Source: Nitrospirota bacterium
Lineage (GTDB): Bacteria > Nitrospirota > Thermodesulfovibrionia > Thermodesulfovibrionales > SM23-35
DNA: 32,032 nucleotides
Assembly (NCBI GenBank): GCA_014859105.1
Contig: JACUUX010000030.1
Coordinates: 1 to 32,032, forward strand
Direction: 5' to 3'
Part shown: in pieces, positions 3,756-31,657 of the stretch
Position numbering within the stretch: position 1 is the first letter of the stretch
Layout of the letters: every line of letters starts with the position of its first letter
The notes under the pieces: generated by a model
Told to the model about the DNA's origin: nothing
Seen by the model: the letters and a program-made list of their open reading frames with translations, nothing else
Database searches by the model: none
Made by a program: the position numbers and the translations under genes

Positions 3756-3762
3756 GGAGACG

Positions 3763-6050: not shown

Positions 6051-6053
6051 AGT

Positions 6054-11780: not shown

Positions 11781-11985
11781 AATCAATAATAATGATTAAC
11801 TGATTGTAACTTAATGAGAATTTGGAGTTTTTCCGATTAAACCTCAGGCGGTAGTTGAAAATACTTGCTCTTTGACAACTTTATGGCTCTTTTTAATATT
11901 ATTTCAGTGACGCAGTGCGCAAAAATGTTTCTCAGACGGAAAACACACTGGAAAGGTTTGAGCAATAAAGGTTTACAGAGGGTGT
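11781..11985 (+). other. CRISPR leader
   Basis: An AT-rich stretch of 205 bases between cas6 and the first repeat with no coding frame. Array polarity (repeats ending GAAAC on this strand, truncated repeat at the far end) puts the leader here. It contains the promoter candidate at 11872-11900, a short inverted repeat CGCA-G-TGCG at 11911-11919, and a GG-N10-GC spacing at 11950-11963 discussed under findings. Confidence 0.75.
11872..11900 (+). promoter_or_regulatory. Candidate leader promoter
   Basis: A perfect -35 TTGACA at 11872-11877 followed after 16 bp by TAATAT at 11894-11899 (four of six matches to TATAAT) in a T/A-rich tract. Transcription would run into the array. This is the best sigma-70-type match between cas6 and the repeats. 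Confidence 0.55.
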
Positions 11986-12726
11986 ATTCTGAAGAGCCGA
12001 TAATAAGAGGCAACTGAAACATTTGTTATGTAATCCTCTATTGCATACCATACTTTATCAATTCTGAAGAGCCGATAATAAGAGGCAACTGAAACAGAAC
12101 GTTTTTCCTTACATAATCAAGGGCATGATAGAAATTCTGAAGAGCCGATAATAAGAGGCAACTGAAACATTACGCTATCACTGGCATCAAAAATGCTTAT
12201 GATGTGATTCTGAAGAGCCGATAATAAGAGGCAACTGAAACAAACGTAATCCTCCACTTTCATGTCCTTATGCTTATTCTGAAGAGCCGATAATAAGAGG
12301 CAACTGAAACTCGGTGAGACTCCCGAAGCGCAGGATAAGGTTAAATTCTGAAGAGCCGATAATAAGAGGCAACTGAAACGAATCATGCGGATGATATCAA
12401 AGGAAAGCTTTCTGAATTCTGAAGAGCCGATAATAAGAGGCAACTGAAACTGAGTACGTCAACACGAAGGAGTTTGCCTTTCTTAATTCTGAAGAGCCGA
12501 TAATAAGAGGCAACTGAAACGGTAGGATTTTACTCCATCCCTGTAATCACATACCGCATTCTGAAGAGCCGATAATAAGAGGCAACTGAAACTTTATTAC
12601 GAGGATGGTAGGAGGAACAGTAACATAATTCTGAAGAGCCGATAATAAGAGGCAACTGAAACTTTGATTTGCCGCGGCAACCAATTAAATTCTTTTTATT
12701 CTGAAGAGCCGATAATAAGAGGCAAC
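11986..12726 (+). CRISPR. CRISPR array, ten full repeats plus one truncated, ten spacers
   Basis: The 35-bp repeat begins ATTCTGAAGAGCC and ends GGCAACTGAAAC. Full copies, identical by eye, start at 11986, 12061, 12134, 12207, 12276, 12345, 12416, 12486, 12558 and 12628. The eleventh, from 12698, matches for 29 bases to 12726 and then loses the final TGAAAC. Spacer lengths in order are 40, 38, 38, 34, 34, 36, 35, 37, 35 and 35. The GAAAC end gives + strand transcription with an expected 8-nt handle ACTGAAAC, as usual for type III repeats cut by Cas6. Only a weak GCC/GGC stem is visible in the repeat. The leader-distal truncated repeat abuts the adaptation genes. Confidence 0.97.
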
Positions 12727-12742: not shown

Positions 12743-12776
12743 AGTGAAAGATAAGACTGAAAGGGAGACGAAGATT

Positions 12777-15411: not shown

Positions 15412-15993
15412 ATGAGTTTTGAATGGTTTACAGGTCCTGATTCTGAAATATGGGTATATTTAGACAGGGTTTCAATCATCTTGAGTTATATAGTAGTATT
15501 TTCAATCATTTATGGTATCGTGGTTCTTGTCAAATTCTTCAGAAGGTACAGGAAAATAAAAACACATATGAAAAAAGTTGATGGGACAAGCCCTAAACCA
15601 ATGGCTCTGGCTATAAGTTTTGGTGGAAGCATTAAAAAACCTGTAGAAGATTATCTTAATAAACACTATACACAAAGTATTTCTATAATGGATTATTCTT
15701 CAGAAAAAGAAGTAACTCCACAAAATATTCATGACCACATTAAAAAACTTCTTGAGCTTAAACATGACTTACAAGCAGAAGGAGTTACAGAATTGCATCT
15801 ATTCATAAAAGGACCGGTTATATTTGGTGCATTGGTTGGTGCGATGTTCGATAATTGGTGTAATGTCAAGCTCTACCACAATAACAGAAAAGGAGAATAT
15901 GAAGAGTGGGCAATGCTTCATGCAGCAAAAGAACTTTCACCTGACGAACAACTCGCTGTTCAGACAGCAAAGATGCTGGAGGGAAAAAGATGA
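15412..15993 (+). CDS. Single-pass membrane SAVED-domain protein
   Basis: A 193-residue protein. One hydrophobic segment at about residues 17-43 (VSIILSYIVVFSIIYGIVVL) is followed by a basic stretch (KFFRRYRKIK), which predicts a cytoplasmic C-terminal domain. Residues about 60-175 look like a compact SAVED domain, the CARF relative that binds cyclic oligonucleotides: MALAISFGGSIKKPVEDYL near the start and LHLFIKGPVIFGALVGAMFD then VKLYHN near the end, as in the family's HLFxxGPxxxAxxLG signature. No protease, nuclease or TIR domain is attached. I infer a membrane-perturbing effector or sensor responding to the Cas10 product. It overlaps the next gene (ATGA). Confidence 0.7.
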   Translation: MSFEWFTGPDSEIWVYLDRVSIILSYIVVFSIIYGIVVLVKFFRRYRKIKTHMKKVDGTSPKPMALAISFGGSIKKPVEDYLNKHYTQSISIMDYSSEKEVTPQNIHDHIKKLLELKHDLQAEGVTELHLFIKGPVIFGALVGAMFDNWCNVKLYHNNRKGEYEEWAMLHAAKELSPDEQLAVQTAKMLEGKR

Positions 15994-16256: not shown

Positions 16257-16273
16257 AAAGTTCGGGAGTATAT

Positions 16274-17123: not shown

Positions 17124-17774
17124 ATGATATGGATTTTTGAAGAAAATGAACAACATATACTGGAACAAATAAAAAACCTATTTCCAAATTTGGACGCAGA
17201 AAATGAGTGGAATAGAATTAAAATTATACTACAAGAAAATATACCTGATGATTGGAGATTAACAAGGTTTTCCCCTGATTTTTTAATACTCGATCTCAAA
17301 ACAGGCATTACACTGACAGGTGAGCAAAGTCGAGGGACTGGATCAGATACCATATATAAAACCATAAGAACTGCCCTTGATAGAGGAAGTTTCTCCAGAT
17401 CAAAAATTGCTAAGCATGCCGGCTCCTCAACGGCTTTTGACATTGCGAAAAGGCCAAATATATTTTTAGGAGATTCGACTCTTGATGAAATATTTGAACA
17501 CTCCAGCGTATTAGCGAGACAATACGAAAAGGTTAGCTATAAAAACGCGAATGTAAATTTTGGTAGTCAAAATAGCCCCAGGTATTATAATGTGCAAGTT
17601 AAATATCCCATTGAGTATTTTAAATTACAACCATTAACTAAAAAAGGCATCACTCCGGGTATTATTGTTTGGATGAAATGGCATGTTAACAGAGGGGACT
17701 GTAGTCTTATTAATGGTGTTCCACCGGATAAATATCATGGTGAAGACTATTGGTTCCTTTCTTTATATAAATAA
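17124..17774 (+). CDS. Unknown 216-residue protein, paralog of the 31697 gene
   Basis: Not recognised. The N-terminal region (about 25-90) contains IPDDWRLTRFSPDFLILDL and GITLTGEQ, then an Ile/Thr-rich segment ending in IRTALDRG. The same arrangement (LPDDWRMTRTKNNFMIKIV, NVTLVGYSY, IDTVFLKD) recurs in the 99-residue protein at the other end of the polymerase block. The middle (SFSRSKIAKHAGSSTAFDI) could form a helix-turn-helix, and the C-terminus is aromatic and strand-rich (YFKLQP, IIVWMKWHV, YWFLSLYK). There are no membrane segments or obvious catalytic motif. An AAGGAGAT lies ten bases before the ATG. Being adjacent to and co-oriented with the polymerase gene, it may be a regulator or partner of it. 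Confidence 0.7.
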   Translation: MIWIFEENEQHILEQIKNLFPNLDAENEWNRIKIILQENIPDDWRLTRFSPDFLILDLKTGITLTGEQSRGTGSDTIYKTIRTALDRGSFSRSKIAKHAGSSTAFDIAKRPNIFLGDSTLDEIFEHSSVLARQYEKVSYKNANVNFGSQNSPRYYNVQVKYPIEYFKLQPLTKKGITPGIIVWMKWHVNRGDCSLINGVPPDKYHGEDYWFLSLYK

Positions 17775-17819
17775 ATAAAAAGTTGTTTTTATAATAGGAA
17801 ATTATTGCGGAGGATTTCT

Positions 17820-20800
17820 ATGAAAGATATGATTATACTGTCTCCCCATCTTGATTCGTATAAAAAATTTATCAGTGTAAGTAATCAGGAGCAATCTTCA
17901 TTATTTAAACTTCTTTCCGAAGTATTCCCTATTAAAGTCGAAAAGTCTATTGAACAGAAGATTTTCACCAAAGCCCGACTGAGGGAAAAAGAGCTTGATG
18001 CGCAAGTAAAAGCTCTGTCCGGGAAAATACTTGCAACAGATATCATTCATCCGATTCATCGTACGGTCATTGCCAAAGTTGGGGAAGAACTCAATCAAGA
18101 TATTATAGAGAAAGCTATATCGGCAAAGATTCCCGAGGTCATGATTATGGTATATGACAGTTACGATGAATTGCGGATATTACCAGAAAAGATCGGGGAA
18201 ATCAGGGCAGGTGGTGTTTATGATTATTCAAAACTAAAGAGAGAAGAATCTATAAAGATAAACTTTGAGGGATACCAGATCAGCACAAGCCCGCTTACAG
18301 AACTACAGTGTTTTGAATCCTTTGAAAGCCTTATGACAAATATAAGGTTGAATCTCTCCATAGTGACTGATGTTCGATGGGTCTTTGATGGAATTGAACT
18401 CTATCACGACACTTCCACTAAGTCAGCAAATAGATCATTAGGCTCTGTCCCTCAGTTTACCGACAGAAGCAGCTTCATCATTAATGGGATTGAAAGAGTC
18501 CCGGTCGCACAGATTCTCCGCAGCGGATATGGGATCTTAATTGAGGGGAAAAGAGACAGTTCATTCGTAACTACTTACGAGGCATGGGTGAGGCCTAAAA
18601 GGGGGAGGTATCTGAAATTCAGCATACCTGACAGTGGTGATGATAAATGGATCATCTTGGCAACGATACACGGACTAAGAAAACCTATAAACCTCAAATA
18701 TTTCCTCGATGCATTTGATTTTATGAAGGAGGCTGATGAGGTATTCTCTGATAGCAGCTTTTATAAGCTTAACAAAGACGAAGCGATACTGAAAAGTCTC
18801 GGCAAGAGAAATATTACAGACACCATAGTCAGCCAAAAAGATATCAGTTTCCTCTCCCACCATTTTTTCAGTGATCAAAGTTCCTATTATCTCTCAGCAA
18901 AGGGTCGACAGAAGCTGAATGAAAAGCTGGCAGTTGCAAGCAGCAAACATGTACTTGCTTTACCTTCAATAGAAAAAATGTGTCTCACACGGGAAGATAT
19001 CCTGAGCACTGTTGCCTATCTCTTTAATCTTATTGAAGGAGAAAGCGGGTATACAGCAGATGATGTGGACAACCTGGCAAACAGGGAAGTGTTGCTTGTT
19101 GGGGATCACCTTGAAGCAGCTTCCATAAGGGCGCTTCGCAAGATTAAGCAGGCCCTTATAAAAGACATAAGACAAAATGAAGAAATGTCGTACACACTAT
19201 CCAAGATGCCTGTTTTCTTTAATTCTGCTATGGAAGACTATGCCAACGGTGAACTCTGTCAGATACTGGATATGACAAATCCTTTATCAGAAATCTCACA
19301 TAAAAGGAAGATAACTTTTTATGGGCCGGGAGGATTGTCGAAAGAGTACAGAGGTGTCTATAGACGGGACGTACATTATACCCATTATGGCCGCATCTGT
19401 CCTGTGGAAACCCCTGAGTCAGAAAAAATCGGGCTTACGGTTCACCTGGCTACTTACGCAAAGATCGAGGACGGTCAGATCAAAACCCCTATCATGACCG
19501 ATAAGGATTATCAGTTACCAGCGAATGCTGTTTTTATGGGTCCCAGTGATGAGACTCTTCCGATACTCCCCAAATCTGAAGAAAAGACCATTTTCGCCCG
19601 GCATGGTGAAAAGGAAATGATCAAATTAGATTCCCCGGATATGCCACATCACCAAGATGCTTTCCAGGGCCAGTTCCTGGGCATTGCAGCTTCCATGATA
19701 CCGTTTGTTCAGCATGATGATGCAAACAGGGTCCTTATGGGCGCCAAGAACCTTAAGCAGGCTCTTCCCCTTTTGAAACCGGAGCAGCCATTTGTTAAGA
19801 CGGGTATGGAAAAAGTTGCTGCGATGCTCAGCGGACGCGGAATTGTGGCAGAAAAAGCAGGGGAAGTCTTAAATGCCGACGAGCATGAGATCATTATTGA
19901 ACAAGAAGATCTGTCAAAAAGAACATACAAGCTGAATTCGATGGCACCTACACTCACGGAAACTGCTATTTTTCATAAGCCAGTTGTAAGTAAAGGCGAT
20001 TACGTTGCGGAAGGACAGCTCATTGCTGAAGGTGCTGCAATGAAAGACGGAGAGCTGGCGTTGGGAGTAAATCTGCTTGTTGCTTATATGCCCTGGGAAG
20101 GTTACAACTTCGAGGACGGCATCGTAATCAGTGACAGGCTCCAGAGAGAAGATATACTGACTTCTATCCATATTAAAGAAGTGATCGTTGATATCGATGA
20201 AGATGAAATCGCATGGTGGGAAGCAAAGAGCTCGAGTAGTTTTAAGGTTCTCGGAGATTTTATGCAGTTAAACAAGGACGGATATATCAACATCAACACT
20301 AAAGTTGAGGCGGATACTGTGCTTGTTCAGAAGTTTAAGAGATATAAAGAAAAGAAGAGCATGAAAAAGGGATGCAGTCTTATTTTTATAAAGGGGGAAT
20401 CGTATGTTGACAAGCCTATCTTGATTAAGGCGGACGATACTATGTGCGGAACGATCATCAAAGCAGAAAAGCGGGATATTTATGGCAAGCAGCGTATTGT
20501 TATCTGGATCCTTCAGGAAAGGAAAGTAACTGTTGGCGATAAACTCATGGGAAGACACGGGAACAAAGGGGTAATATCAAAAATACTCCCAATGCATGAA
20601 ATGCCATATTTTGTTGATGAAGAAAAAGGTGAAGTAGAGCAAAAGGGATCTGACTACTATCACGGAGAGGACAGGCCGCATAAACACATAGATATAGTCT
20701 TAAATCCAAATGGTGTAATATCGAGAATGAACCTCGGACAGCTTTTGGAAACGCATGCTGGCCTTTTCGCAAAGACAAAGGGAATCCCGCATATTACAGT

Positions 20801-23800
20801 AAGGCCATTCGAAGAATATGACATAGAGACTTTAAAAGGCGAACTTGATTCATTGGGGTTTTCTGATGGTAAAGCGACTCTCTACGACGGAGAAACAGCC
20901 CGACCATTCAAAAATCCTGTCACTGTCGGATACCAGTATATAGTGAAACTGAATCATCTGTCGGAGGAAAAAGTACATACCAGGCTGACTGGAAGATACA
21001 CCACGATTATCCAGCAGGCACCGAGAGGGAAAGAAAATGAGGGTGGACAGCGCATCGGCGAGATGGAGGTCTGGGCATTGCTTGCCCACAAGGCTTTCGT
21101 GCTCCTTCAGGAGCTCTTGTCGATTAAATCCGATGATGTTGAGGGAAGACTGGACGCCATGGAAAAAATGAAGAACCTCAACGTTACCAAAATGAATTTC
21201 GGTTCGCTGAAACTTCAGCGGCATATGCCTGAATCTTTCCGTGTGCTTCTACTCCTGCTCCATGGGCTTGCTATAAAGCCTGTGATACATTTAACGGACG
21301 GCACATCGATTGAAGATTTTGAATACACACCGTCTTTCACTGTAGACCAGATGTCAGAGCTTAGCCTTCATCGGAACGATGAAGGCGCGAAATGCCATGT
21401 CACAGAGAGCAGGTATAGAGAAAGGCTTGTTTATGGAGAAATATCCTGCGGGTGCAGGGGATATTTCAAGGATATCCTGCTGAGCAGAAATCCCCTGATA
21501 TGCAGAAAGCATGGCCGTGAAGTCAAACTTTCCTGTGGCTGCGAAGGGAATCTTTTGAATTTGACAGAGCATACGAATGCAGGATTCAAGTGCAAGAAGC
21601 ATAAAGAGGTAGTGAAATTTTCTGTAGGGAAGCAGGCCCAATTTTACTCAGCCAAGGATTTGAAAGAAGATAGTCAGATCATTAAAAGACTTGGCAATTT
21701 GATCCAGACAGAGATTTACGGATCAAAAGAACAGTTAAAAACAAAAAAAGAAATGGGGAAGTTATTACTCGATGTTATGCAAGACCCGAAATTTGCGGAG
21801 AAGGTACTTGAGAAGAAACCACAGCTTGCATTAACGAATGATCTGAAGATGCTTGTTGAGAGGGTGAAAAACATTCATGACAGGCCATTTTCAATTCTGA
21901 AGACCAGGGAGAAGAATATGGTCAGAAATCTCAACAGAAAACTCCTCGATAAGGCTTATCCCAAAGGACTGCAGGTAGTGTGGCAGGATGAGCAGACAGT
22001 ATTTACTGAAGATGGAATTTTTTCACAAAAGATATTTGGCCGTGAAGAGAAAAAAAGGCGTGAAACAATCGACTTCCTCAATCTGGCAATGGAGATGGGA
22101 TATCCTCTGTCCCGCACCACTTCGAAAGATGGAGGATATAAGTATGCTTTGACAATCAAGAAACTGCCAATAATACCGCCTGAACTAAGGCCCCTATTGC
22201 TTGATGAATCAGGCGGATCTGAACTGAACCGCCTGTATCAACGTGTCATAGCGCAAAACATAAGGCTTAAAGATATTCTTGAAATGAAGAAGAGGGGGGA
22301 GAATATTCCCCAAAATGAGATAGATGAAGAGGTCCAGGAACTCCAGAGTTGTCTGGACCAACTGATGGTCGACGGGCTCGAAGATTCAGGAAAGGTATAC
22401 CGTTCTCTCATGGATATGCTGAATGGCAAGTATGGGCTTTTCAGGCAGGCAATGCTCGGCAAACGGGTCGATGCCAGTGGAAGAGCTGTAATAGTACCTG
22501 CTCCTCATCTTTCCATCACTCAAATGGAACTTCCCTTCAAAATGGCACTTGAACTCTTCAAACCATGGATTCCGCAGTGTCTTATATGGTACAGCGAAAA
22601 TCTTGAAGGTGGCAAAGAAGACCTGAAAAAACTGAAAATAAAAAAGTTGGGGCGGGCACAGGCTGAAGGCATAATAGCTTTACACAGAGAACCCCTTCAG
22701 CAAAAAATGATCAAGGATGCCATGCAGGAATGGATCAAAGCTAATGATCTTGTCGTACTTCTCAACCGGGCCCCCAGCCTCCATAAATATAATATTCTGG
22801 CCTTTTCTCCGGTGATAACTGATAATCCTACAATTGGCCTTCATCCACTAGTCTGCACAGGATTCAATGCGGATTTTGACGGAGATCAGATGGCAGTATT
22901 TCTCCCATGGATTGGGCAGGACGAGGCGCGGGAAAGGCTCACTCCTCTCAGAAATGTTCTTTCTTCCGCAAATGGAAGTTTGCTCCTGGATTTCTCGCAG
23001 GACATCGTTGCCGGGCTCTTTTTATTAGAAAACAAGAAGAAAAAGGAAATAATTCAGGAGATGAAAGATAGCTATCTGACAAGCAACAAAGAAAAGTTTG
23101 CAGAAATTGCGAATAAAAAAATGCTGGATGGTTTCAGTAGCGCGACAAAAACAGGTTTGACGTTCAGCCTCTTTGACCTTGATCCCATAATGGTCTGGGA
23201 GAAGGAACGTGACGGGATTCTCAGTGAAGTTGTAAGGGATATCGGGCCATATGATCAGCTCTCCCAGGATATAAAAGAAAAGGTTGTTGATTTTTGGAAG
23301 ATAAGAGTGAAAGACAAAATAGCTGAAAAAATGAATGCGAACAAAGAGAACCCTATTGCTGTTATGTCATCATCAGGAGCAAGAGGCGATCTCGGAACAA
23401 TCACTCAGCTGGCGGGAATGAGGGGGTTCATGGTAAAAACAGGTGGTTCCCTGAGTGAAGAACCTGTCAGGACAAACTTCAGGGAGGGATTGTCACCCCT
23501 TGAATTTTTTATTTCCACACATGGATCCAGAAAATCGCTCGTCGACAAAAAACTCAAGGTAGCTGAAGCAGGGGACTTCACAAGAAGGCTTGTTCACAGC
23601 GCAATAGATTATTGTGTGGTAAATCATGACTGTGGCACCAAAGATGGGATACATATAGAGGATATCGATCCCCTGAGTGTTGAATCAATGGTGGATGAAG
23701 CGCTGATTGGGCAGGTATCTGCCTTTGACTATAATTCGGCCGGCATAAAGAGAGGCCGGAGTATTAAAAGTGAGGATATTGAATCGCTCAGGGAAATCGG

Positions 23801-24695
23801 GATCAATAAAATATTTATATGGGCTTCCGGGAAAGTCCCTTTTCGGAACAGGATCGTGGGAAGGGTTCTTATGCAAGATATACCCGGGGGGTTTATTAAG
23901 GCGGGAGAGGTTATTGGTGAAGAAGCAGCTGATAAGATCGAAGCTATGGGCATAAACAGACTTCTCTTAAGGTCGGTTATGACGTGCAAAGCTCAGAAAG
24001 GTTTCTGCCAGAAATGTTATGGGTGGGAACTCTCGATGAGAGAATACCCAGAGATAGGATTGCCGGTCGGTGTTATCGCTGCTGAATCTATCGGGGAGAG
24101 AGGCACACAGTTGAGCATGAGGACATTTCATACAGGCGGTGTCAAAGGAGAAGATATCACACAAGGACTTCCCCGAGTGAAGAATATCTTTGAGAACAAG
24201 CCCATTCCGCTGATGGTATTCAAAATCCTTAAGCCCGGGGATTCTCCATTTGCCATAAATGAAGAGGTTGATGAATTGAAGCTTTTCTTTGAAGTGAAGC
24301 GAATAGAATCGGAAAACGGGGAAATTCCTTCGTACGAGAAAATCGGCACAGTAAAGAAGTCCCTTGGAGAGCTCCTGGAGGAGTACAAATCACTTGATAA
24401 TCTCGTATTGCTCCTTCTTAGGGAAATGCATGCTGCCTATAAAGGAGAAATTGCTGACAAGCATTTTGAGATTATCCTCAAATCAATGTTTAAAGCTCAT
24501 GAAACAGGTTATAAACTTGTCGGCCTAACACATGCAGCCGCAACTGCTGATTTCCTTTCCTCAGCATCGTTTCAACGTGCCAAGCAGGTATTTAAAGATG
24601 CAGTCAAGCATAAGGGGGGGCTGAAGACGTCTTTGTCAGGGCTTAGAGATGCAATTATGCTTGGAAGACTTCCAGAAAGAGAGGAGGTTATCTAA
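17820..24695 (+). CDS. rpoBC: Fused beta-beta' RNA polymerase
   Basis: DNA-dependent RNA polymerase core with beta (about 1-1150) and beta' (about 1150-2291) in one chain. The ATG at 17820 has GCGGAGG six bases upstream; a TTG at 17805 is the alternative. Beta motifs: TDRSSFIINGIERV (214-227), GRICPVETPE (524-533), PFVQHDDANRVLMGAK (628-643), MPWEGYNFEDGIV, GRHGNKG (911-917), QRIGEMEVWAL. Beta' motifs: LLGKRVD-type MLGKRVDASGR, NRAPSLHK, catalytic NADFDGDQM with D1685/D1687/D1689, bridge-helix GARGDLGTITQLAGMRG, trigger-loop SIGERGTQLSMRTFHTGG, and Zn2 cysteines (HDCGT, MTCKAQKGFCQKC). A duplicated CxC...CxxH zinc ribbon lies at 1210-1261. It is shorter than rpoBC fusions of Helicobacter, without large insertions. 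No rpoA or rpoZ is nearby. It overlaps the sigma gene (TAATG). Confidence 0.97.
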   Translation: MKDMIILSPHLDSYKKFISVSNQEQSSLFKLLSEVFPIKVEKSIEQKIFTKARLREKELDAQVKALSGKILATDIIHPIHRTVIAKVGEELNQDIIEKAISAKIPEVMIMVYDSYDELRILPEKIGEIRAGGVYDYSKLKREESIKINFEGYQISTSPLTELQCFESFESLMTNIRLNLSIVTDVRWVFDGIELYHDTSTKSANRSLGSVPQFTDRSSFIINGIERVPVAQILRSGYGILIEGKRDSSFVTTYEAWVRPKRGRYLKFSIPDSGDDKWIILATIHGLRKPINLKYFLDAFDFMKEADEVFSDSSFYKLNKDEAILKSLGKRNITDTIVSQKDISFLSHHFFSDQSSYYLSAKGRQKLNEKLAVASSKHVLALPSIEKMCLTREDILSTVAYLFNLIEGESGYTADDVDNLANREVLLVGDHLEAASIRALRKIKQALIKDIRQNEEMSYTLSKMPVFFNSAMEDYANGELCQILDMTNPLSEISHKRKITFYGPGGLSKEYRGVYRRDVHYTHYGRICPVETPESEKIGLTVHLATYAKIEDGQIKTPIMTDKDYQLPANAVFMGPSDETLPILPKSEEKTIFARHGEKEMIKLDSPDMPHHQDAFQGQFLGIAASMIPFVQHDDANRVLMGAKNLKQALPLLKPEQPFVKTGMEKVAAMLSGRGIVAEKAGEVLNADEHEIIIEQEDLSKRTYKLNSMAPTLTETAIFHKPVVSKGDYVAEGQLIAEGAAMKDGELALGVNLLVAYMPWEGYNFEDGIVISDRLQREDILTSIHIKEVIVDIDEDEIAWWEAKSSSSFKVLGDFMQLNKDGYININTKVEADTVLVQKFKRYKEKKSMKKGCSLIFIKGESYVDKPILIKADDTMCGTIIKAEKRDIYGKQRIVIWILQERKVTVGDKLMGRHGNKGVISKILPMHEMPYFVDEEKGEVEQKGSDYYHGEDRPHKHIDIVLNPNGVISRMNLGQLLETHAGLFAKTKGIPHITVRPFEEYDIETLKGELDSLGFSDGKATLYDGETARPFKNPVTVGYQYIVKLNHLSEEKVHTRLTGRYTTIIQQAPRGKENEGGQRIGEMEVWALLAHKAFVLLQELLSIKSDDVEGRLDAMEKMKNLNVTKMNFGSLKLQRHMPESFRVLLLLLHGLAIKPVIHLTDGTSIEDFEYTPSFTVDQMSELSLHRNDEGAKCHVTESRYRERLVYGEISCGCRGYFKDILLSRNPLICRKHGREVKLSCGCEGNLLNLTEHTNAGFKCKKHKEVVKFSVGKQAQFYSAKDLKEDSQIIKRLGNLIQTEIYGSKEQLKTKKEMGKLLLDVMQDPKFAEKVLEKKPQLALTNDLKMLVERVKNIHDRPFSILKTREKNMVRNLNRKLLDKAYPKGLQVVWQDEQTVFTEDGIFSQKIFGREEKKRRETIDFLNLAMEMGYPLSRTTSKDGGYKYALTIKKLPIIPPELRPLLLDESGGSELNRLYQRVIAQNIRLKDILEMKKRGENIPQNEIDEEVQELQSCLDQLMVDGLEDSGKVYRSLMDMLNGKYGLFRQAMLGKRVDASGRAVIVPAPHLSITQMELPFKMALELFKPWIPQCLIWYSENLEGGKEDLKKLKIKKLGRAQAEGIIALHREPLQQKMIKDAMQEWIKANDLVVLLNRAPSLHKYNILAFSPVITDNPTIGLHPLVCTGFNADFDGDQMAVFLPWIGQDEARERLTPLRNVLSSANGSLLLDFSQDIVAGLFLLENKKKKEIIQEMKDSYLTSNKEKFAEIANKKMLDGFSSATKTGLTFSLFDLDPIMVWEKERDGILSEVVRDIGPYDQLSQDIKEKVVDFWKIRVKDKIAEKMNANKENPIAVMSSSGARGDLGTITQLAGMRGFMVKTGGSLSEEPVRTNFREGLSPLEFFISTHGSRKSLVDKKLKVAEAGDFTRRLVHSAIDYCVVNHDCGTKDGIHIEDIDPLSVESMVDEALIGQVSAFDYNSAGIKRGRSIKSEDIESLREIGINKIFIWASGKVPFRNRIVGRVLMQDIPGGFIKAGEVIGEEAADKIEAMGINRLLLRSVMTCKAQKGFCQKCYGWELSMREYPEIGLPVGVIAAESIGERGTQLSMRTFHTGGVKGEDITQGLPRVKNIFENKPIPLMVFKILKPGDSPFAINEEVDELKLFFEVKRIESENGEIPSYEKIGTVKKSLGELLEEYKSLDNLVLLLLREMHAAYKGEIADKHFEIILKSMFKAHETGYKLVGLTHAAATADFLSSASFQRAKQVFKDAVKHKGGLKTSLSGLRDAIMLGRLPEREEVI

Positions 24696-25660
24696 TGCCG
24701 GATCAGGGATATTTTGCTGATTTAAGCACATCATTTGGAGATATTACTAAGCAGGATGTTGAAAAACATACTGCCAGGTTGACGAAAGCGGAACATTCGA
24801 TTAGGGAAGAAATTCTAACAATACAGGCAAAGGATATCGAACAGTTTCTACAACAACAGAGTTTCCTGAAGTTTCAGCAGGAATTCTCGGAGAGTCCCTC
24901 TGAGTCCTCGGAGCATGAGACAATCGAAGAAGATGAAGCGTGGGACATAATTGCTGAAGGGTATGAAACATCAACTGACCCTGACGGGGACTTTTCAGAA
25001 GGTACTGACCTCACCACAGCTTTTGATACAACATATCAGGCCACCGATATACATAAAAGATCATTTGTTGTATCTAAAAGGCAGAAGATATATGATGTGG
25101 AGATTAGGGAGGATAAAGAAGAGTGGTGCGTTTATGTGCCTGCTGCGGCTGTTATCGACAGATATGATTTTAATCAGGCATTGAAAAACGTACCATCTAA
25201 GGTGTGGCTTGGCAACTTTATACTCAAAGTTGCGAATGAAAGACAGAAACACCTTCTTCATATAGGTGAATTCCTTGTCCAGAACATAGAGCGTCATCCT
25301 GAATTTATGGAAGATGGACTTGCATGCCTTCTGGAGTTCACCCAGGAAAATATAGCGAAAGAACTTGATGTTGATCTTACCACTATTACCAGGCTGAAAA
25401 ATGCACGCTTTTTCGTTACGAGGGTAGGAGAAATAACACTGGAGAATATTTTGAATAATACCAAGACAGGTTTTGCTTTGCTGGTAAGGAAGATCATTGA
25501 TCGAGAGGATCCGACCAAACCTCTCAGTGATACAGAAATAGCAGAGAAATTACCTGATTCTTGCAAGTGTACCGGCAGACACATAGGCAATATCAGAAAT
25601 GAATTGGGAATTCCAGGCAAGCATAATCGGAAAAAACCACGCATGGCAGAAAGAGCATAA
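24695..25660 (+). CDS. Divergent sigma-54 (RpoN-like) factor
   Basis: The 321-residue protein aligns by eye with the C-terminal half of RpoN: WLGNFILKVANERQKHLLHI (171-190), a core-binding/HTH part with FTQENIAKELDVDLTTITRL (215-234), then LVRKIIDREDPTKPLSDTEI (263-282) and TGRHIGNIRNELGIP at 293-307, where RpoN has its promoter-reading RpoN box (ARRTVAKYRE). The box is heavily altered, so a non-canonical -24 element is expected. The N-terminus is Gln-rich around 49-62 (IEQFLQQQSFLKFQQ), like region I, and is followed by an acidic stretch (78-102) like region II; the protein is much shorter than normal RpoN (about 480). The start overlaps the polymerase stop, with GAGGAGG upstream, implying equimolar synthesis. 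Confidence 0.88.
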   Translation: MPDQGYFADLSTSFGDITKQDVEKHTARLTKAEHSIREEILTIQAKDIEQFLQQQSFLKFQQEFSESPSESSEHETIEEDEAWDIIAEGYETSTDPDGDFSEGTDLTTAFDTTYQATDIHKRSFVVSKRQKIYDVEIREDKEEWCVYVPAAAVIDRYDFNQALKNVPSKVWLGNFILKVANERQKHLLHIGEFLVQNIERHPEFMEDGLACLLEFTQENIAKELDVDLTTITRLKNARFFVTRVGEITLENILNNTKTGFALLVRKIIDREDPTKPLSDTEIAEKLPDSCKCTGRHIGNIRNELGIPGKHNRKKPRMAERA

Positions 25661-25661
25661 G

Positions 25662-27584
25662 ATGGGAAAGGTGAAAATTCTTATTATAAGTAATGGAAAC
25701 TTTTTAGAACGTATTCTTAAAGACAATAATATTTATTATGAGTTACTGAACAGTAAGAGTCAAAGAGATATTAACGCAAAAATAAAATCTCTTCAAAAAA
25801 ACAAAATCGATATAATTTTTCTCGATACATCCTTAATAGATGAACCAGTCTCACAATTTTTTGAGCCCTTGAACAATTTTTGTAAAGATAAATCTTACAG
25901 CCATCCACCCATTTTTGTCGTATATGAGAAATCTTCCTTTGATGTAAGGGCTGAAATATGGAAACAGCCCATCATCGGTTTTGCCAAAAAGGGCTCTGCT
26001 GAAGCCAACTCCGATATTAAAAAAATTATAACTGATATAGAAAACAGAAAATCACATGAAAAAGATCCCGGGATAGAAATCGGTAGCGTAGAGTCTGTTG
26101 CCCCAGATCTTTACGAAAGATTTAAGTTCATCAGTCTTACCGCCGGAAGAATGCGCGAATTCATGTTGGATTTTAAGAACATCATTAATAACATTACCCA
26201 CATAAAAAATGATGATTCCTTTTGCAATGCTTACCCCAATGAATGGCTGGATTATATGCACTATACTCTTCATCCGCCTGAGGATAAACAAACACAGGAA
26301 TCCTTTGAAAAATTAGGAAAAAGATTGATAAGTAAAACAAATATTTTTGAGGATGCGAAACTCACAAAGAAATTTGAGGAAATATTTTGCGATGAAGAGA
26401 GAGTAAAAAACGAAAAGCTGAACCATATACTTATAGAGGGGGAGACAGGCACAGGTAAGTCCCTTATCGCAGAGATGATCAAACAATTCACATGTGCTAA
26501 GAGGTTTGAGAAAGTTACCTGCACAAACATTTCTACAAATCTCCTTGAAGGCGAATTATTTGGTCATATGAAAGGCTCTTTTACCGGAGCTTACCAAACC
26601 AAGGCAGGTAGGGCTATCAATGCTTATAACGGGATCATATTCCTTGACGAAATAGGAGACATGGATCCATATCTTCAGGCAAAGATACTTACCTTTCTTG
26701 ATAACGGTCGTATTGAGCCAATTGGTTGGATCGGACCTACTCTTTATATCCCATCATTGGTTGTTGCTGCTACTAACAAAGATCTGCTTAATCTTGCAAA
26801 AGCGAGAAAATTCAGGGAAGACCTTTACTATCGCTTTGCCCAGAGAATAACAATCCCACCATTAAGAGAAAGGAAAGGTGATACCGATCTCCTTGTAGAC
26901 TTCATTCTTCAAAATCCCGATATTAATCCTTTGAAAGGTGAAACAAGAACGGTCAGCTATATAAATGCACATGCGATAGAAAAGCTTAAAACGCATATTT
27001 TCCCGGGAAATTACCGTGAATTGGAATATATATTGCTTGACGCTGTAAAAAAGGCAAAAAGGCTAAGAAGCAGCGTTATCCTCCCCGAAGACATAGTCTT
27101 TCATGAGCCTTCAATAGAAGAAAGCGATGCTGTTTTCGTGGTTCCCAAAAAGACTGAAGGAGGAGAGGTAAAAATACTCCTCCAGTGGGACGTTTATTGG
27201 AAACAATACTTCTTTATCGGTGGCAGGTTTGAACGAAACAAGGATGTAACATTGGAAGATACCGCCCGCCGTGAAATAACAAACAAGATTAAAATAGACA
27301 AAGGCTATCGACTGACACCCATAAGCGATGACTTGTCCTCGCTTCAGTACCCGAAGCAGTATGCGGAAAGGCGGCTCTATCAATTCCATGTATTTGGCAT
27401 TGAATTCGAGCGTCCGGTGTTTGATTGGCTGATAAGACGCGCTTGCATTCTTGCAAGTATTAGCGACGTTGTACGGGGTGATTATAAGGGGAAAAGAATT
27501 TCTGAAACAGTCAGGGAGGTATGGGAGAAGCTCTCTTCAGGAATCGAAGAATTGCCTGAGTCATTCAAGGCGGAGGGGAAATGA
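25662..27584 (+). CDS. Sigma-54-activating AAA+ protein with receiver-like and Nudix-like ends
   Basis: A 640-residue bacterial enhancer-binding-protein relative that should remodel the sigma-54 complex by ATP hydrolysis. The AAA+ core is at about 225-480: Walker A GETGTGKS (260-267), sigma-54-contacting loop GSFTGA (305-310, consensus GAFTGA), Walker B IIFLDE (325-330), arginine-finger region KFREDLYYRF (383-392) and FPGNYRELE sensor II. Residues 1-125 resemble a receiver fold (KILIIS, DIIFLDTSL with D55, PIFVVYEKS, GFAKKGS) but lack the first-strand acidic pair, so phosphorylation is doubtful. After 490 there is no Fis helix-turn-helix; instead a Nudix-like segment (GGRFERNKD...EDTARREIT, 520-540) appears. 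It sits one base after the sigma gene. An upstream in-frame start lies inside that gene. Confidence 0.9.
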   Translation: MGKVKILIISNGNFLERILKDNNIYYELLNSKSQRDINAKIKSLQKNKIDIIFLDTSLIDEPVSQFFEPLNNFCKDKSYSHPPIFVVYEKSSFDVRAEIWKQPIIGFAKKGSAEANSDIKKIITDIENRKSHEKDPGIEIGSVESVAPDLYERFKFISLTAGRMREFMLDFKNIINNITHIKNDDSFCNAYPNEWLDYMHYTLHPPEDKQTQESFEKLGKRLISKTNIFEDAKLTKKFEEIFCDEERVKNEKLNHILIEGETGTGKSLIAEMIKQFTCAKRFEKVTCTNISTNLLEGELFGHMKGSFTGAYQTKAGRAINAYNGIIFLDEIGDMDPYLQAKILTFLDNGRIEPIGWIGPTLYIPSLVVAATNKDLLNLAKARKFREDLYYRFAQRITIPPLRERKGDTDLLVDFILQNPDINPLKGETRTVSYINAHAIEKLKTHIFPGNYRELEYILLDAVKKAKRLRSSVILPEDIVFHEPSIEESDAVFVVPKKTEGGEVKILLQWDVYWKQYFFIGGRFERNKDVTLEDTARREITNKIKIDKGYRLTPISDDLSSLQYPKQYAERRLYQFHVFGIEFERPVFDWLIRRACILASISDVVRGDYKGKRISETVREVWEKLSSGIEELPESFKAEGK

Positions 27585-28657
27585 ACAATCTGCTTAGCTT
27601 CGATAGAAAGAACTTTAGCAAACAGGGGTTAGAGGGAATAAAAAATGATTTCTTCTACGCTGTTTCTGTTACCCATATTAAAGGCAACTTCTGGAGACTG
27701 AAGGATTATGCAAAAAAGTTTTCGCGAAAGATACGAGACACGCAGCTTGCTATATACAGAAATGAGTCAAAATTTGATTCAGAACAAAAATGCTTTCTCG
27801 ATAATATCATAGCCGGTCTCCGCAATATACAGAGTGATCTTGATAATTCCATACAATGCACGGCTCAATATGTCAACTTTTCTCTTCAAAGCATGAAGGA
27901 GGCAAATCAACGACTCAGGCACATCCAGGATAAAGGGTACGGAGACGGAGTGAGAAAGGCTTTGTGGGGCATCAGAGATACCGTCATCCCAAATGCAATA
28001 GAGAAACTTTGCACAGATTTCATGCGGCTCGAGAATCAACTCATATCTGTCATTAAGGATTCCCTGAGGCCGAATGACGTTCTTCAGTGCTTTGAAGTAT
28101 TTGAAGCAAAAGATACCGGAATCACCGCAGTGCTTTATGCGCAGGCAAAAGACATATTACAAGAGCTGATCATGAACAGGAAGATATTTCTTGCGAGTGT
28201 GCCGGCAGGCTATTTTATTGATATCCTTGCACCCGCGCATAAAATATTCTATGACTTTTCAGACCCGGAGAAGACACTTAAAACTTTGAATAAAAAATTG
28301 GATATGTCTCTCAAGAAAAAGGAAGATTTCCCGAAATCAAAATCATTTCAGATAGCGCAGCAGATGTTATCCATGAATGACGATCCAAAAATCCTGGAGA
28401 CTTATGCAGGTAGAACTTTTATCATCCATTTCCTTAAGGATCAGCATGATGATAGGTCCTTTACCGGCGAGCATGTATCCGAGGAAGTTGTCTGGAAGCT
28501 TATGATGCACCTTGAACTGGAAGTCGAGGGCGAAAATGGGGAATTCCTTCATTGTAGAGTAGTGAAGGAGAAAAACCCTACATTGGTTAAGATCCTAACC
28601 CTTCCGAGACGCAAAACAGGATGGTTTTTGGTAACATCTCATGCCACTGTTGTTTAG
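27581..28657 (+). CDS. Unknown helical protein between bEBP and MoxR genes
   Basis: Not recognised. The 358-residue protein begins in an ATGA overlap with the activator gene. Residues about 30-150 are predicted long amphipathic helices with coiled-coil character (DSEQKCFLDNIIAGLRNIQS, MKEANQRLRHIQDKG). The middle is helical (LYAQAKDILQELIMNRK). The last 90 residues are strand-rich (RTFIIHFLKD, VVWKLMMHLELEVEGENGEF, GWFLVTSHATVV). There is no nucleotide-binding motif and no membrane segment. The position between a sigma-54 activator and a MoxR-VWA pair suggests an adaptor or substrate of the AAA+ machines, which is inference from context only. Confidence 0.75.
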   Translation: MNNLLSFDRKNFSKQGLEGIKNDFFYAVSVTHIKGNFWRLKDYAKKFSRKIRDTQLAIYRNESKFDSEQKCFLDNIIAGLRNIQSDLDNSIQCTAQYVNFSLQSMKEANQRLRHIQDKGYGDGVRKALWGIRDTVIPNAIEKLCTDFMRLENQLISVIKDSLRPNDVLQCFEVFEAKDTGITAVLYAQAKDILQELIMNRKIFLASVPAGYFIDILAPAHKIFYDFSDPEKTLKTLNKKLDMSLKKKEDFPKSKSFQIAQQMLSMNDDPKILETYAGRTFIIHFLKDQHDDRSFTGEHVSEEVVWKLMMHLELEVEGENGEFLHCRVVKEKNPTLVKILTLPRRKTGWFLVTSHATVV

Positions 28658-28667
28658 GAGGTAATAA

Positions 28668-30077
28668 ATGGGCATATTAAGCGGCCTTGCTGTAGGATAC
28701 GAGCAGATCGAGCCAGTGATTGTCTCAAACGTTGCTCTCGATAGAAACATTATCCTTGTTGGAAGACATGGAACATGCAAAACGACGCTTGCAAGAGAGC
28801 TTGCCAAAGGCTACGAGGGATCATTTGTCATATATGATGCGACCAAGGACGACATAATATCCATCTGCGGTATCCCAAAGACAAAAGCCCTCGAGGAAGG
28901 AGTATTTGATTTTGCCATAGGGGAGAGAACTATCTGGGACAAAAAGCTCATTGTCATAGATGAAATTGGACGTGCAACGAAAGAAAATCAGAATATACTC
29001 CTCGAGATTTTACAGGAGAAGACATGCTTCGGGAAAAAGCTTGCTTACAGGACACTGATAGCCACAATGAATCCCGAGTCATACGCTGCCTCCCTCCGAC
29101 TGGATGAGGCCCTGCTGGACAGGTTTTACTGTGTAATCAACGTGCCGGATTTTTATAAGGGTGCCCCAAAGAAGTCGATCAGTGATATTGTGATGATGAA
29201 TCTCAATCAGCAGAGAATGACAACAACTGATGGTCTTGTAGAAGCCTATGCGAAGGTCAGGAATAATTATGAAGAATTGAAACGGCTTGCCATAGATGCG
29301 GTAGCCACCTATGTGAGTCATCTGCTCGAGGTCCTGACAGGGAGTGGTGATCGGTACATTTCGCCGAGACGGTACACCATGCTGGCCGATGAAATTCTCA
29401 TTATCGGAGCTTATTATCTCTACACAGAGGAATCGAAATATCTGGAAAAGGCAGCTAGGATGGCCTTGAACTATGCGATAGCCCTTCCCCTGAAGATTGA
29501 ACTTGCAAAACTGTATTCACTTCACAATAACTTCAGACAATTTCTCGATATCGAAGGTGCTAAAAACACCAAGGTAATGCAGCTCCGGGCGGAGATTGCT
29601 CGCCTTAGGAACGATGAAGAAAAAACAGAATTCATAATCAGGAATCTTAAAGATATTGCAGAGCATCTTAAACAAGATGAAGCGACAAATCTGATGGGGC
29701 TTGCCCTTGAAAAATGTAAGGACAAGGAGCGGGCACTCCTGCCGGATTATTTTAATGCCCTCAGAACTATCGCTGATGGGGTTGGATTTGATGACATCAA
29801 GCGTTCAGTAACCTCTGAATACAGGATTGCCTGGGATGCAGGTATCCAGGAATTGATTCAGAAACTGGGTAAGATGAAATTAGGTTCAGCTGAGGACTCC
29901 TCGTACCTCGAAGAAATCAATAAATATCTTCAGAAAATACAAACCCCGGACATCTTTGGGAGCAAGGAGCCTGAAGTAATGCAGTTCAGGAAGCTGATTT
30001 TTCAGGAAAAAGATAAATTTCTCCGGATATCTTCAATAAAAGAGCTTTATTCACTCATTTTTCAGAAGGACTCATGA
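28668..30077 (+). CDS. MoxR-family AAA+ ATPase
   Basis: A 469-residue MoxR-type AAA+ ATPase, usually a chaperone-like partner of a VWA protein. Walker A is GRHGTCKT (32-39), Walker B LIVIDEIGRA (94-103), sensor I IATMNPESYAASLRLDEALL and arginine finger DRF (151-153). A helical lid follows (about 170-270, including ISPRRYTMLADEI). The last 180 residues are predicted helical, with TPR-like or coiled-coil character (KVMQLRAEIARLRNDEEKTE). AGGAGGT precedes the ATG at 28668. The stop overlaps the VWA gene start (ATGA), the usual MoxR-VWA pairing. It could activate, or load a metal into, the VWA partner, or act on the polymerase; neither is shown. Confidence 0.9.
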   Translation: MGILSGLAVGYEQIEPVIVSNVALDRNIILVGRHGTCKTTLARELAKGYEGSFVIYDATKDDIISICGIPKTKALEEGVFDFAIGERTIWDKKLIVIDEIGRATKENQNILLEILQEKTCFGKKLAYRTLIATMNPESYAASLRLDEALLDRFYCVINVPDFYKGAPKKSISDIVMMNLNQQRMTTTDGLVEAYAKVRNNYEELKRLAIDAVATYVSHLLEVLTGSGDRYISPRRYTMLADEILIIGAYYLYTEESKYLEKAARMALNYAIALPLKIELAKLYSLHNNFRQFLDIEGAKNTKVMQLRAEIARLRNDEEKTEFIIRNLKDIAEHLKQDEATNLMGLALEKCKDKERALLPDYFNALRTIADGVGFDDIKRSVTSEYRIAWDAGIQELIQKLGKMKLGSAEDSSYLEEINKYLQKIQTPDIFGSKEPEVMQFRKLIFQEKDKFLRISSIKELYSLIFQKDS

Positions 30078-31657
30078 GGGGCGATTTAAATATTTCCTCT
30101 GATGAGGCTTATCCTCTGCTTGAAGCCGCCAGCGAGTTAGAGATAACACTCCTTGAATGTCAAAAACTCATTACGATCAGCGATGAGGTGAACATTGCCT
30201 GCTGGAGCTATAACACGAAAACAGGAGAAGAAAAAATCATCATAAATCCTGAGATCCTCAATTTCCCGCCAAAATATCTTGAGATGGTACTAAGACACGA
30301 AATACTTCATAAGTACCTGTACAAAGGATACTCCCCAACGCTGCATGATCATCAATTGCTGAATGTCGCACTGGATATCTGTATTAATAGGTTGCTTTTC
30401 TCTGTATACAAAGATGATTTTGTGAATTTCTGCAATACAATCTATAGCAAAAATTCGGAAAACCGTCAAAATATCCTCGCTTTAGCATGGGCAGGCCTTG
30501 ATCCTGAAGAAATAAAGGATGAAAAGATCAGGAACCTGTACAAAAAAATATGGAAGGGACAAAGAGTTCCATCTCCGAAAGAAATCTACTACTCTCTGTT
30601 GAGTCAGGATATAGACCCTACGCAAGTTGGAGGACCAATACCATTTGCAGGAAGAAGTATAGGAAAGGGTCTTGGAAAGGGAGACAAAGGGGAAGCTAAA
30701 GGGGAAGATAAGGGGCGAGGAAATGGTACAGATGAAGGACAAGGCGAAGGAAGGAAGGGAAACGGAAAAAGAAAGAAAAAAGGAAATAAATATATCGATA
30801 AAGACGGCTCTCTGGGAGATGAAGAAGATAACGGAGATGACGGAATTGTTTTGCGCGAAATCCCTGATGATGATGGGCAGCATGAAGTAGACAAATCAGA
30901 AGATAAGATCTGGAAAGGATTAGGGGACATAGGGGAAAGTCAAGGTGGAGGGTTCTCCAATTCTGTTTCTGATTGGCTGAAAATCATTCAGGTCGAAAGA
31001 AGGGAATGTGAAACCTCTGAGCTTGAAGATTTCCTCAACCGGATAGAATCAGTTGACATACTTGATGAGGTCTCAACAAGGATTATTCATGCCATAACAG
31101 GAGCTACCCAGAGACAACTTTATCCCTATCGCCTCAGTCGAGCCGGATTTGTGTACCTCAACGCTGGCATATCCGACATCCTCCATCAATACTGGAACAA
31201 GACTGTCGAGGGGAGGAAGACAAAGCTAAATATCTATGTTGATACATCTCCCTCTATGTACCCTTTCAGGGAGCAAGAGATTTTTCTTATCGAGCGGTTC
31301 AGGGACCTTTTCCCAACTACTTTTTATGTTTTTGCAGGGAAAGTGGAGGAATTTCTTATTGATGACTTTATAAAAGGGAAATACCCTGGTGGGAGTTCAA
31401 CAAGCTTTGATAGTGTAATTAAGCATTTTATTGATTCAGATGCCGAATGTGGTGTTGTCTTCACGGACGGGGAATCTTCTGTCTCGATGCATAATAGAAG
31501 CAATTTCAAGATGTCAAGGAAAAGGCTTTTTACAGTGTATTTTAATGATGCCCAACGGAACCAACAGATAAAATCAGATTTGGATTATATGTCTGAGGCT
31601 GTAATGCAGATAAATGTAAAAGACAAGGTGCTTGGAAAAAAACTCAAAATGTATTAG
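30074..31657 (+). CDS. VWA-domain protein with HExxH metallopeptidase-like N-terminus
   Basis: A 527-residue partner of the MoxR ATPase. The N-terminal domain (about 5-180) carries RHEILHKYLYKG, an HExxH motif at 75-79, followed by HDHQLLNVALDICINR, as in the DUF2201-type putative metallopeptidase domain found before VWA domains. A low-complexity Gly/Lys/Glu linker spans about 193-280. The VWA domain (about 380-525) has a full MIDAS: DTSPS (390-394), the GGSSTSFDS threonine loop (439-447) and FTDGE (463-467). No signal peptide or membrane segment is seen, so it is cytoplasmic. Protease activity is possible but unproven, since many members of this group are uncharacterised. It is the last gene of the overlapping sigma-bEBP-unknown-MoxR-VWA operon. 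Confidence 0.87.
   Translation: MRGDLNISSDEAYPLLEAASELEITLLECQKLITISDEVNIACWSYNTKTGEEKIIINPEILNFPPKYLEMVLRHEILHKYLYKGYSPTLHDHQLLNVALDICINRLLFSVYKDDFVNFCNTIYSKNSENRQNILALAWAGLDPEEIKDEKIRNLYKKIWKGQRVPSPKEIYYSLLSQDIDPTQVGGPIPFAGRSIGKGLGKGDKGEAKGEDKGRGNGTDEGQGEGRKGNGKRKKKGNKYIDKDGSLGDEEDNGDDGIVLREIPDDDGQHEVDKSEDKIWKGLGDIGESQGGGFSNSVSDWLKIIQVERRECETSELEDFLNRIESVDILDEVSTRIIHAITGATQRQLYPYRLSRAGFVYLNAGISDILHQYWNKTVEGRKTKLNIYVDTSPSMYPFREQEIFLIERFRDLFPTTFYVFAGKVEEFLIDDFIKGKYPGGSSTSFDSVIKHFIDSDAECGVVFTDGESSVSMHNRSNFKMSRKRLFTVYFNDAQRNQQIKSDLDYMSEAVMQINVKDKVLGKKLKMY

Follow-up and report, generated by a model that had tools for sequence, protein, structure and literature searches.

By the textbook account a bacterium has a single core RNA polymerase (RNAP), and regulation works through exchangeable sigma factors. 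Does the 32,032-base contig JACUUX010000030.1 of a Nitrospirota bacterium, which bears a type III CRISPR locus, encode a second core enzyme together with its own promoter-opening machinery, and is that machinery governed by the neighbouring CRISPR system? A second, self-contained polymerase inside the type III locus, gated by a signal, had been proposed in an earlier reading made from the letters of this contig (hereafter the sequence-only reading). The window discussed below is the entire contig (C115) of a source genome of 3.16 Mb in 148 contigs. Judged from sequence comparison, a six-gene cassette in its second half is probably a rare, mobile, ATP-gated polymerase dedicated to sigma-54 and second to that of the host. 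Gating by CRISPR signals is doubtful.

A fused polymerase encoded with a sigma-54 and an activator

Six genes of the + strand follow each other between 17820 and 31657 with intergenic gaps or overlaps of at most 10 bases, a spacing which supports their co-transcription. In order, they are:

17820..24695, +, fused beta-beta' RNA polymerase, 2291 amino acids from ATG 17820 (longest open reading frame from TTG 17805)
24695..25660, +, short divergent sigma-54, 321 amino acids, C-terminal DNA-binding part recognised
25662..27584, +, sigma-54 activator (bacterial enhancer-binding protein, bEBP), AAA+ with GSFTGA (longest frame from 25599)
27581..28657, +, 358-amino-acid protein without family, 4-base overlap with the activator stop
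28668..30077, +, MoxR-type AAA+ ATPase, 469 amino acids (AAA_5 1.2e-12)
30074..31657, +, putative vWA metallopeptidase, 527 amino acids, with HEILH, MIDAS-like DTSPS and weak DUF2201_N

The polymerase frame (17805-24695, +) has no internal stops and its likeliest start, ATG 17820, is preceded by GGAGG. Pfam recognised Rpb2_3, Rpb2_6 and Rpb2_7 in the beta part and Rpb1_1 (last third only), Rpb1_2, Rpb1_4 and Rpb1_5 in the beta' part, each above cut-off. NADFDGD, GDKLMGRHGNKG, NFEDG and GERGTQLSMRTFH are all present; the active-site motifs (NADFDGD and GDKLMGRHGNKG) and the trigger-loop GTQLSMRTFHTGG are intact and are kept in all three long RNAPs of this kind that we found. By its beta and beta' catalytic domains, NADFDGD and trigger loop, the protein belongs to the bacterial-type multisubunit cores.

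It is nevertheless a divergent member. Among the columns invariant in 13 ordinary RNAPs (that of the window genome, five of its family and seven from other phyla or classes), 187 of 312 are kept in beta and 193 of 371 in beta'. An arginine (GERGTQ) replaces the near-universal proline of GEPGTQ, and the bridge-helix stretch departs from that of ordinary RNAPs. The Rpb2_1 and Rpb2_2 regions are unrecognised by Pfam, as are the first two thirds of Rpb1_1, the match beginning at profile position 206; a canonical beta' N-terminal clamp with zinc-binding domain was thus not found in the fused chain. In the alignment the ordinary four-cysteine zinc site is not conserved, and two CGC...C..H clusters were noticed by eye near the expected position of this domain. 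The GEPGTQ proline also varies elsewhere, being Q in Spiroplasma (L057, L060, L063) and N in a metagenome-assembled genome (MAG) of Rhodoluna (L059).

Ordinary rpoB and rpoC are found in the window genome as separate open frames of 1316 and 1396 amino acids (contig C108), next to a single rpoA (C39) and an ordinary rpoN of 480 amino acids (C82; 3.3e-57). Since this complete ordinary set is present, it is well supported by the gene inventory that the fused RNAP is a second enzyme. The fused gene as the genome's only rpoBC, which the sequence-only reading had named as fatal to its proposal, is rejected on the same ground. A lineage-wide fusion of rpoBC is rejected as well, the hosts' own genes being separate frames in the window genome and in two relatives described below (Candidatus Jettenia ecosi and a deltaproteobacterial MAG).

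No gene for alpha was recognised among the module genes of the window. Because only one rpoA was found, alpha, if needed, would come from the host. The 216-amino-acid protein encoded immediately upstream of the RNAP (17124..17774, +) was considered as an alpha subunit and rejected for want of any domain match. It is related to the product of a short gene downstream of the operon (31697-31996; 30% over 57 amino acids, E 3e-6), so that two mutually related small genes flank the cassette. The end of the 216-amino-acid protein resembles part of a 746-amino-acid frame on C15 (CYTH and nucleoside hydrolase by eye).

The sigma-54 start codon overlaps the RNAP stop by one base. The protein carries Sigma54_DBD (PF04552, 3.5e-14, above cut-off), that is the C-terminal DNA-binding domain of RpoN, and is considerably shorter than the ordinary sigma-54 of the same genome (321 versus 480 amino acids). 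Against the full-length RpoN model TIGR02395 only its last part matches, with 53 bits (cut-off 277). An acidic motif, AEGY..DGDFSE, is common to this sigma and its Jettenia counterpart.

The activator matches Sigma54_activat (8.6e-43, Pfam) and contains GETGTGK, GSFTGA and FLDEIG, the Walker motifs and GAFTGA-type loop of a bEBP AAA+ domain. ATG 25662 is likelier as its start than that of the longest frame (25599), because in the alignment it coincides with the point where the Jettenia homologue begins. Among PADLOC models, RtcR_PspF2 (CARF-AAA-HTH) is nearest to its AAA+ domain (8.4e-57 in the window, 2e-56 in the MAG), and this match covers the AAA+ part (profile positions 146-398 of 481), not CARF. 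The N-terminus was modelled as five beta-alpha units (residues ~24-153, pLDDT 56-79) matching receiver domains with TM 0.62-0.68 depending on the target, within a structure model that is poor overall (three-sequence alignment, mean pLDDT 40.4). The acidic pair usual after strand 1 of receivers is absent (SNGN, by eye). The N-terminus is therefore best described as receiver-like in the model, and a CARF domain at this place was rejected, as the PADLOC match excludes the CARF part and the model resembles receivers. The C-terminus is weakly Nudix-like (NUDIX 0.002, below cut-off, with the fragment alone); no DNA-binding helix-turn-helix (HTH) domain was matched there by Pfam, and a PDB sequence search with this part was uninformative.

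Downstream, the MoxR ATPase and the vWA peptidase adjoin each other, the latter with HEILH and DTSPS motifs and a DUF2201_N match of 0.0057 that stays below cut-off. The 358-amino-acid protein preceding them belongs to no Pfam, NCBIfam, PADLOC or PHROG family at the limits used, which leaves room for remote homology, and no third component of VMAP or iSTAND type was recognised in it. The MAG gene in the same place resembles it weakly and not significantly (E 0.031).

Several claims of the sequence-only reading are thereby borne out: one gene holds the beta and beta' catalytic motifs, a divergent sigma-54 overlaps it, and an AAA+ activator with GSFTGA follows. Its description of the machine as self-contained holds for core, sigma-54 and activator, which are encoded together, and fails for alpha, with no module alpha recognised and one host rpoA. 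The answer to its question about alpha differs between copies, the host's alpha being the candidate in the window genome and a relative carrying an alpha N-terminal domain of its own.

Relatives of the cassette

We searched with a degenerate pattern of the trigger-loop region from which proline was excluded; it matches the window RNAP and none of the ordinary reference loci compared. In a collection of 84,980 species it retrieved 9 stretches, two of which belong to the module. The remaining seven, from Spiroplasma, Rhodoluna and others, encode RNAPs that are ordinary or incomplete, and no partner genes of the module accompany them within the retrieved stretch.

In Candidatus Jettenia ecosi (L058), a fused RNAP of 2039 amino acids is 47-49% identical to the window RNAP by BLASTP. 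A sigma-54 gene comes next (matched by the window sigma at 1e-9; Sigma54_DBD 5e-5), followed at the contig end by a receiver-like activator start (phmmer 1.6e-22). On contig C179 of the deltaproteobacterial MAG (L062), the end of the RNAP gene is accompanied by a sigma-position gene, by an activator gene whose product is 37% identical to that of the window (6e-70), and by a gene that occupies the position of the one for the 358-amino-acid protein. The remainder of the fused RNAP gene lies on contig C266, its start overlapped by a gene for an alpha N-terminal domain (PF01000 1.8e-8, PF01193 3.6e-7, both above cut-off). We infer that both contigs form one operon. Beside these alpha and RNAP genes, the region L076:6486-12283, which may be a defence island, encodes a ThiF/E1 protein and a protein of HD-CE plus STAND-like type.

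The same MAG contains a second fused beta-beta' type (L077, G401:C203, 22-6739), at least 1801 amino acids long up to the contig edge and with GEPGTQ in its ordinary form. A sigma-54 belonging to it (424 amino acids, Sigma54_DBD 4.8e-23) is encoded next. Because of this additional RNAP with sigma-54, three polymerases may be present in one genome.

Among 343 genomes of the Jettenia phylum one further copy, G569, was found. What is left of its RNAP is 74-88% identical to that of Jettenia. Two open reading frames with identical first 60 residues flank it, and 3 of 35 open reading frames around it match DDE transposase. Of 395 genomes of the MAG's phylum the MAG alone was positive. Searches of 20 family, 395 phylum and 230 class genomes around the window genome, sets which overlap and each count that genome itself, gave no other match beyond the level of ordinary RpoB. 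None of the plasmid (66) and phage (48) records matched by the fused RNAP covered 80% of the query. Plasmid records queried with the second fused RNAP type and with the sigma were uninformative, and so was an IMG/VR scan with the window fused RNAP alone.

Since the order of RNAP, sigma-54 and activator recurs in another phylum, it is not a matter of chance. The sequence-only reading had suggested a search for the module order beside other type III loci; near the relatives we saw no cas gene, in contexts of which two out of three are too short for a judgement.

Phylogeny and phage polymerases

Beta and beta' trees computed separately both group the window and Jettenia RNAPs and then the MAG RNAP, with support 1.0. 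Ordinary loci L034, L036 and L037, viral loci beyond 22 named ones and fragments below 600 (beta) or 450 (beta') residues were left out of these trees. In a joined tree (39 taxa, 1579 columns) the module clade receives supports of 100 and 100 and stands apart from the RNAP of each host. The trees show that the three long module RNAPs constitute a separate clade that has spread horizontally. The comparison with host rpoB and rpoC which the sequence-only reading had called for therefore came out in its favour, and its proposal of a dedicated second core, equipped with a sigma-54 and an activator, is upheld by the fused chain, the gene order and the separate phylogeny together.

Multisubunit RNAPs are also known from phages of the phiKZ and AR9 types. 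In the joined tree, the module clade is sister to the MAG's second fused RNAP (MOD2) plus phage RNAPs, with support 92 and long branches; FastTree support at the corresponding nodes of the single trees is 0.71 and 0.12. Because of the long branches this placement is unsafe and we do not rely on it. Like the cassette, the phage enzymes (IMG/VR L038-L119) are second multisubunit RNAPs beside that of the host, often compact, some fused or split unusually and many with GERGTQ. For a first set of them the identity is 25-29%, whereas the window and Jettenia RNAPs share 47-58%. Unlike the cassette, the 50 viral loci contain no homologue of sigma-54, activator or alpha at E 0.01, except one marginal activator match (0.0047).

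Among the viral contigs of IMG/VR, beta and beta' share one open frame in L088 (1763 amino acids, open at the end), L089 (2244), L096 (2084) and L117 (3763). In L091, L094, L105, L111, L102 and L119, beta is fused to the first part of beta', the rest being a separate frame ~1.2-2.2 kb downstream. An intervening frame of ~480-550 amino acids, primase-like by eye, occurs in five of these six split loci. An Rfam intron search of six phage loci (L091, L094, L105, L111 and two others) gave no match.

Relation to the type III CRISPR locus

Upstream of the cassette and on the same strand, as the sequence-only reading had stated, lies a type III locus, separated from it by genes connected with cyclic nucleotides:

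422..11780, +, type III (Cmr-like) effector genes: Cas10 with GGDD, RAMPs, CARF-HD protein, Cas6
8486-10834, +, CARF-HD protein, within the effector genes
11984..12726, strand not assigned, CRISPR array of 11 repeats
12744..14834, +, reverse transcriptase-Cas1 fusion (RT-Cas1; Pfam)
Between RT-Cas1 and the SAVED protein, +, two small genes taken as Cas2 by eye
15412..15993, +, SAVED protein of SAVED4-TM type, 193 amino acids
15990..16256, +, Csx3/Crn3 ring-nuclease family protein, 88 amino acids
16274..17047, +, uridine phosphorylase, 257 amino acids

The last three genes are consecutive (15412-17047) between RT-Cas1 and the polymerase. The uridine phosphorylase may be an effector or belong to ordinary metabolism.

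Cas10 is present in all four module-bearing genomes. In the three relatives it is encoded on other contigs than the module, and two of these relatives come from one phylum, so that they do not count as three independent observations. As a background, Cas10 was found at a stricter E in 38 of 294 genomes of the Jettenia phylum, Jettenia and G569 among them. The window genome has three Cas10-like genes (C65, C62 and C115). Adjacency to cas genes is seen in the window; the Jettenia and MAG contigs end after 9.0, 4.9 and 12.6 kb, too short for a judgement. In the 40 kb around the G569 remnant, none of 35 open reading frames gave a match to a core cas protein (PADLOC; 15 models matched), the matches nearest in kind being CARF_m8-LolE (7.7e-8), an RT-protease (4e-9) and PrimPol (5e-4).

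The sequence-only reading had inferred a signal-gated machine and had named the CARF-bEBP RtcR among the precedents for nucleotide signals reaching transcription. The AAA+ domain of the activator does fall into the RtcR/PspF2 group; the N-terminus is receiver-like in the model, not CARF. A link to CRISPR signalling is thus not supported as it was put: beside this N-terminus, no core cas match was obtained around the remnant, and no sensor domain was recognised in the module (PADLOC on five of the six proteins, Pfam and NCBIfam only for sigma-54). Given Cas10 in all four genomes, an indirect link to CRISPR may exist.

Comparison with known systems

Sigma factors released by SAVED-Lon (CalpL/T/S) or Craspase systems, and the CARF-bEBP RtcR, are precedents for nucleotide signals reaching transcription. 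Calp (PMC11229360) resembles the cassette in that a type III locus steers transcription via a sigma factor; it differs in freeing a sigma for the host core, whereas the cassette would supply the core itself. Homologues of the Lon-SAVED protease, CalpT and CalpS were not identified in the window. The RtcR and RtcR_PspF proteins with CARF-AAA-HTH architecture (PADLOC; Makarova 2014, PMC4012209) have the AAA+ domains closest to both module activators. Compared with them, the module activator has a receiver-like N-terminus in place of CARF and a Nudix-like C-terminus in place of HTH, and would act on its own RNAP, not the host's. MoxR-vWA conflict systems (PMC7159879, PMC12839542) share adjoining MoxR, vWA-peptidase and a third protein; in the cassette this pair is tied to an RNAP operon, and neither a VMAP nor a STAND domain was recognised in the third protein.

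The nearest description is UAS-58, a 'two-component RNAPol + CARF' near type III CRISPR (Altae-Tran et al. 2023, PMC10910872), in whose figure legend FleQ-like and vWA-MoxR-VMAP modules appear as well. The cassette and UAS-58 may be related. The comparison is by description alone, and the passages on UAS-58 leave 'RNAPol' as either a core enzyme or a sigma factor. As there described, UAS-58 differs from the cassette, whose module has no CARF protein and whose sigma-54, activator and fused beta-beta' are explicit. In the open-access literature searched, no account turned up of a second core RNAP that is chromosomal and comes with sigma-54. By its gene content the cassette thus appears to have no known counterpart supplying its own core, sigma-54 and activator, and UAS-58 could reduce it to a variant.

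Proposed mechanism and alternative explanations

Sigma-54 holds polymerase in a closed complex, which a hexameric activator opens at the expense of ATP. Because of this established mechanism, a private, off-by-default transcription channel is the most economical reading of the cassette. The fused core would assemble with alpha, supplied by the host in the window genome and as an own alpha N-terminal domain in the MAG copy. The mini-sigma-54 would bring this core to a few -24/-12-like promoters and keep the complex closed, until the activator opened it by ATP hydrolysis once its receiver-like and Nudix-like ends reported a cue. MoxR and the vWA peptidase might remodel or switch the complex, or serve as the output. 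Such a channel could survive takeover or shutdown of the host enzyme, as in phage infection. A role in defence or stress is probable and the likeliest one, because a type III locus adjoins the cassette in the window, and HD-CE/STAND and E1-like genes adjoin it in a relative.

A number of observations speak against a working dedicated polymerase. The alignment shows neither canonical region I nor a recognisable core-binding domain in the window sigma-54. Scanning the window revealed no excess of -24/-12 sites (22 found, 26.5 expected); the corresponding counts were 47 sigma-70 promoter-like sites against 39.1 (standard deviation 5.1) in shuffles and 14 terminator-like sites against 15.1 in shuffles. 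The cassette is very rare, and only in the window copy is every module gene unbroken: the Jettenia sigma is interrupted by an in-frame TGA (L075:8055-8057), to either side of which homology continues; the MAG RNAP changes its reading frame close to a contig edge; and the G569 copy is reduced to a broken piece of roughly the first 771 residues. The last positions of the MAG activator loop (GSYTDA) are not GAFTGA-like. The MAG protein in the sigma position has no Pfam match and reaches only E 0.04 against a sigma profile built without it. Among 2320 open reading frames it is nevertheless the best of those remaining against that profile. Compared with the window sigma and with the Jettenia sigma, it outscores all of 300 shuffles in each case; compared with ordinary sigma-54 and with the second-type sigma, 53 and 37 of 300 shuffles do equally well.

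Could the cassette be simply a type III effector, turned on by cyclic oligoadenylate from the neighbouring Cas10, for example via the SAVED-TM protein? Its position on the same strand, directly adjoining a locus with GGDD Cas10, CARF-HD, SAVED-TM and Csx3, and the occurrence of Cas10 in four of four module-bearing genomes would fit. We nevertheless hold it unlikely, for the six module proteins yielded no recognised CARF or SAVED domain, the activator begins with a receiver-like part, the relatives have their Cas10 on other contigs and are not mutually independent, and the 35 frames around the remnant have no core cas match. Similarly unlikely is a phage-derived polymerase captured by a mobile island and transcribing late or maintenance genes of that element, with no part in defence. 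Fused beta-beta' genes in IMG/VR contigs (such as L089 and L096), the position beside phage RNAPs in the joined tree, the GERGTQ common to many of these and the location of the G569 remnant between transposase genes point to such an origin. The supporting node suffers from long branches and poor FastTree support, the viral loci gave, at E 0.01, no match for sigma-54 or alpha and one marginal match for the activator, and the window contig carries CRISPR-cas genes, with no virion genes recognised among the open reading frames scanned.

Genes broken or interrupted in three of four copies, a divergent bridge helix and the loss of ~40-48% of the positions invariant in ordinary RNAPs could be expected of a catalytically poor decoy titrating phage transcription factors, or of a decaying relic; an intact window copy over 2291 codons, the active-site and trigger-loop motifs kept in three long copies and the preserved gene order make this quite improbable. 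Most improbable of all is a misjoining of the RNAP operon and the CRISPR locus in a metagenomic contig. The window is indeed a whole contig of a fragmented assembly; the module order, however, recurs independently in Jettenia, and same-strand, closely spaced genes run across 12-32 kb. Having weighed these possibilities, we favour the dedicated second sigma-54 polymerase. A bolder generalisation, that some immune or stress islands carry a complete sigma-54 machine (fused core, alpha of its own or not, reduced sigma-54 and ATP-consuming activator), silent until triggered and then transcribing rescue or suicide genes without recourse to the host polymerase hijacked by phages, and that in the window organism type III signalling is among the triggers, is offered as a tentative conjecture which may well be wrong.

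If the favoured reading is true, the one-core rule would be broken by a second core that is cellular, has spread horizontally and brings its sigma-54 and activator along, and transcription could continue after a phage had captured the host enzyme. The cassette would provide an orthogonal, ATP-gated expression system for laboratory use. It would also offer a natural experiment on what sigma-54 (region I, core-binding domain) and the core can each do without after co-evolution.

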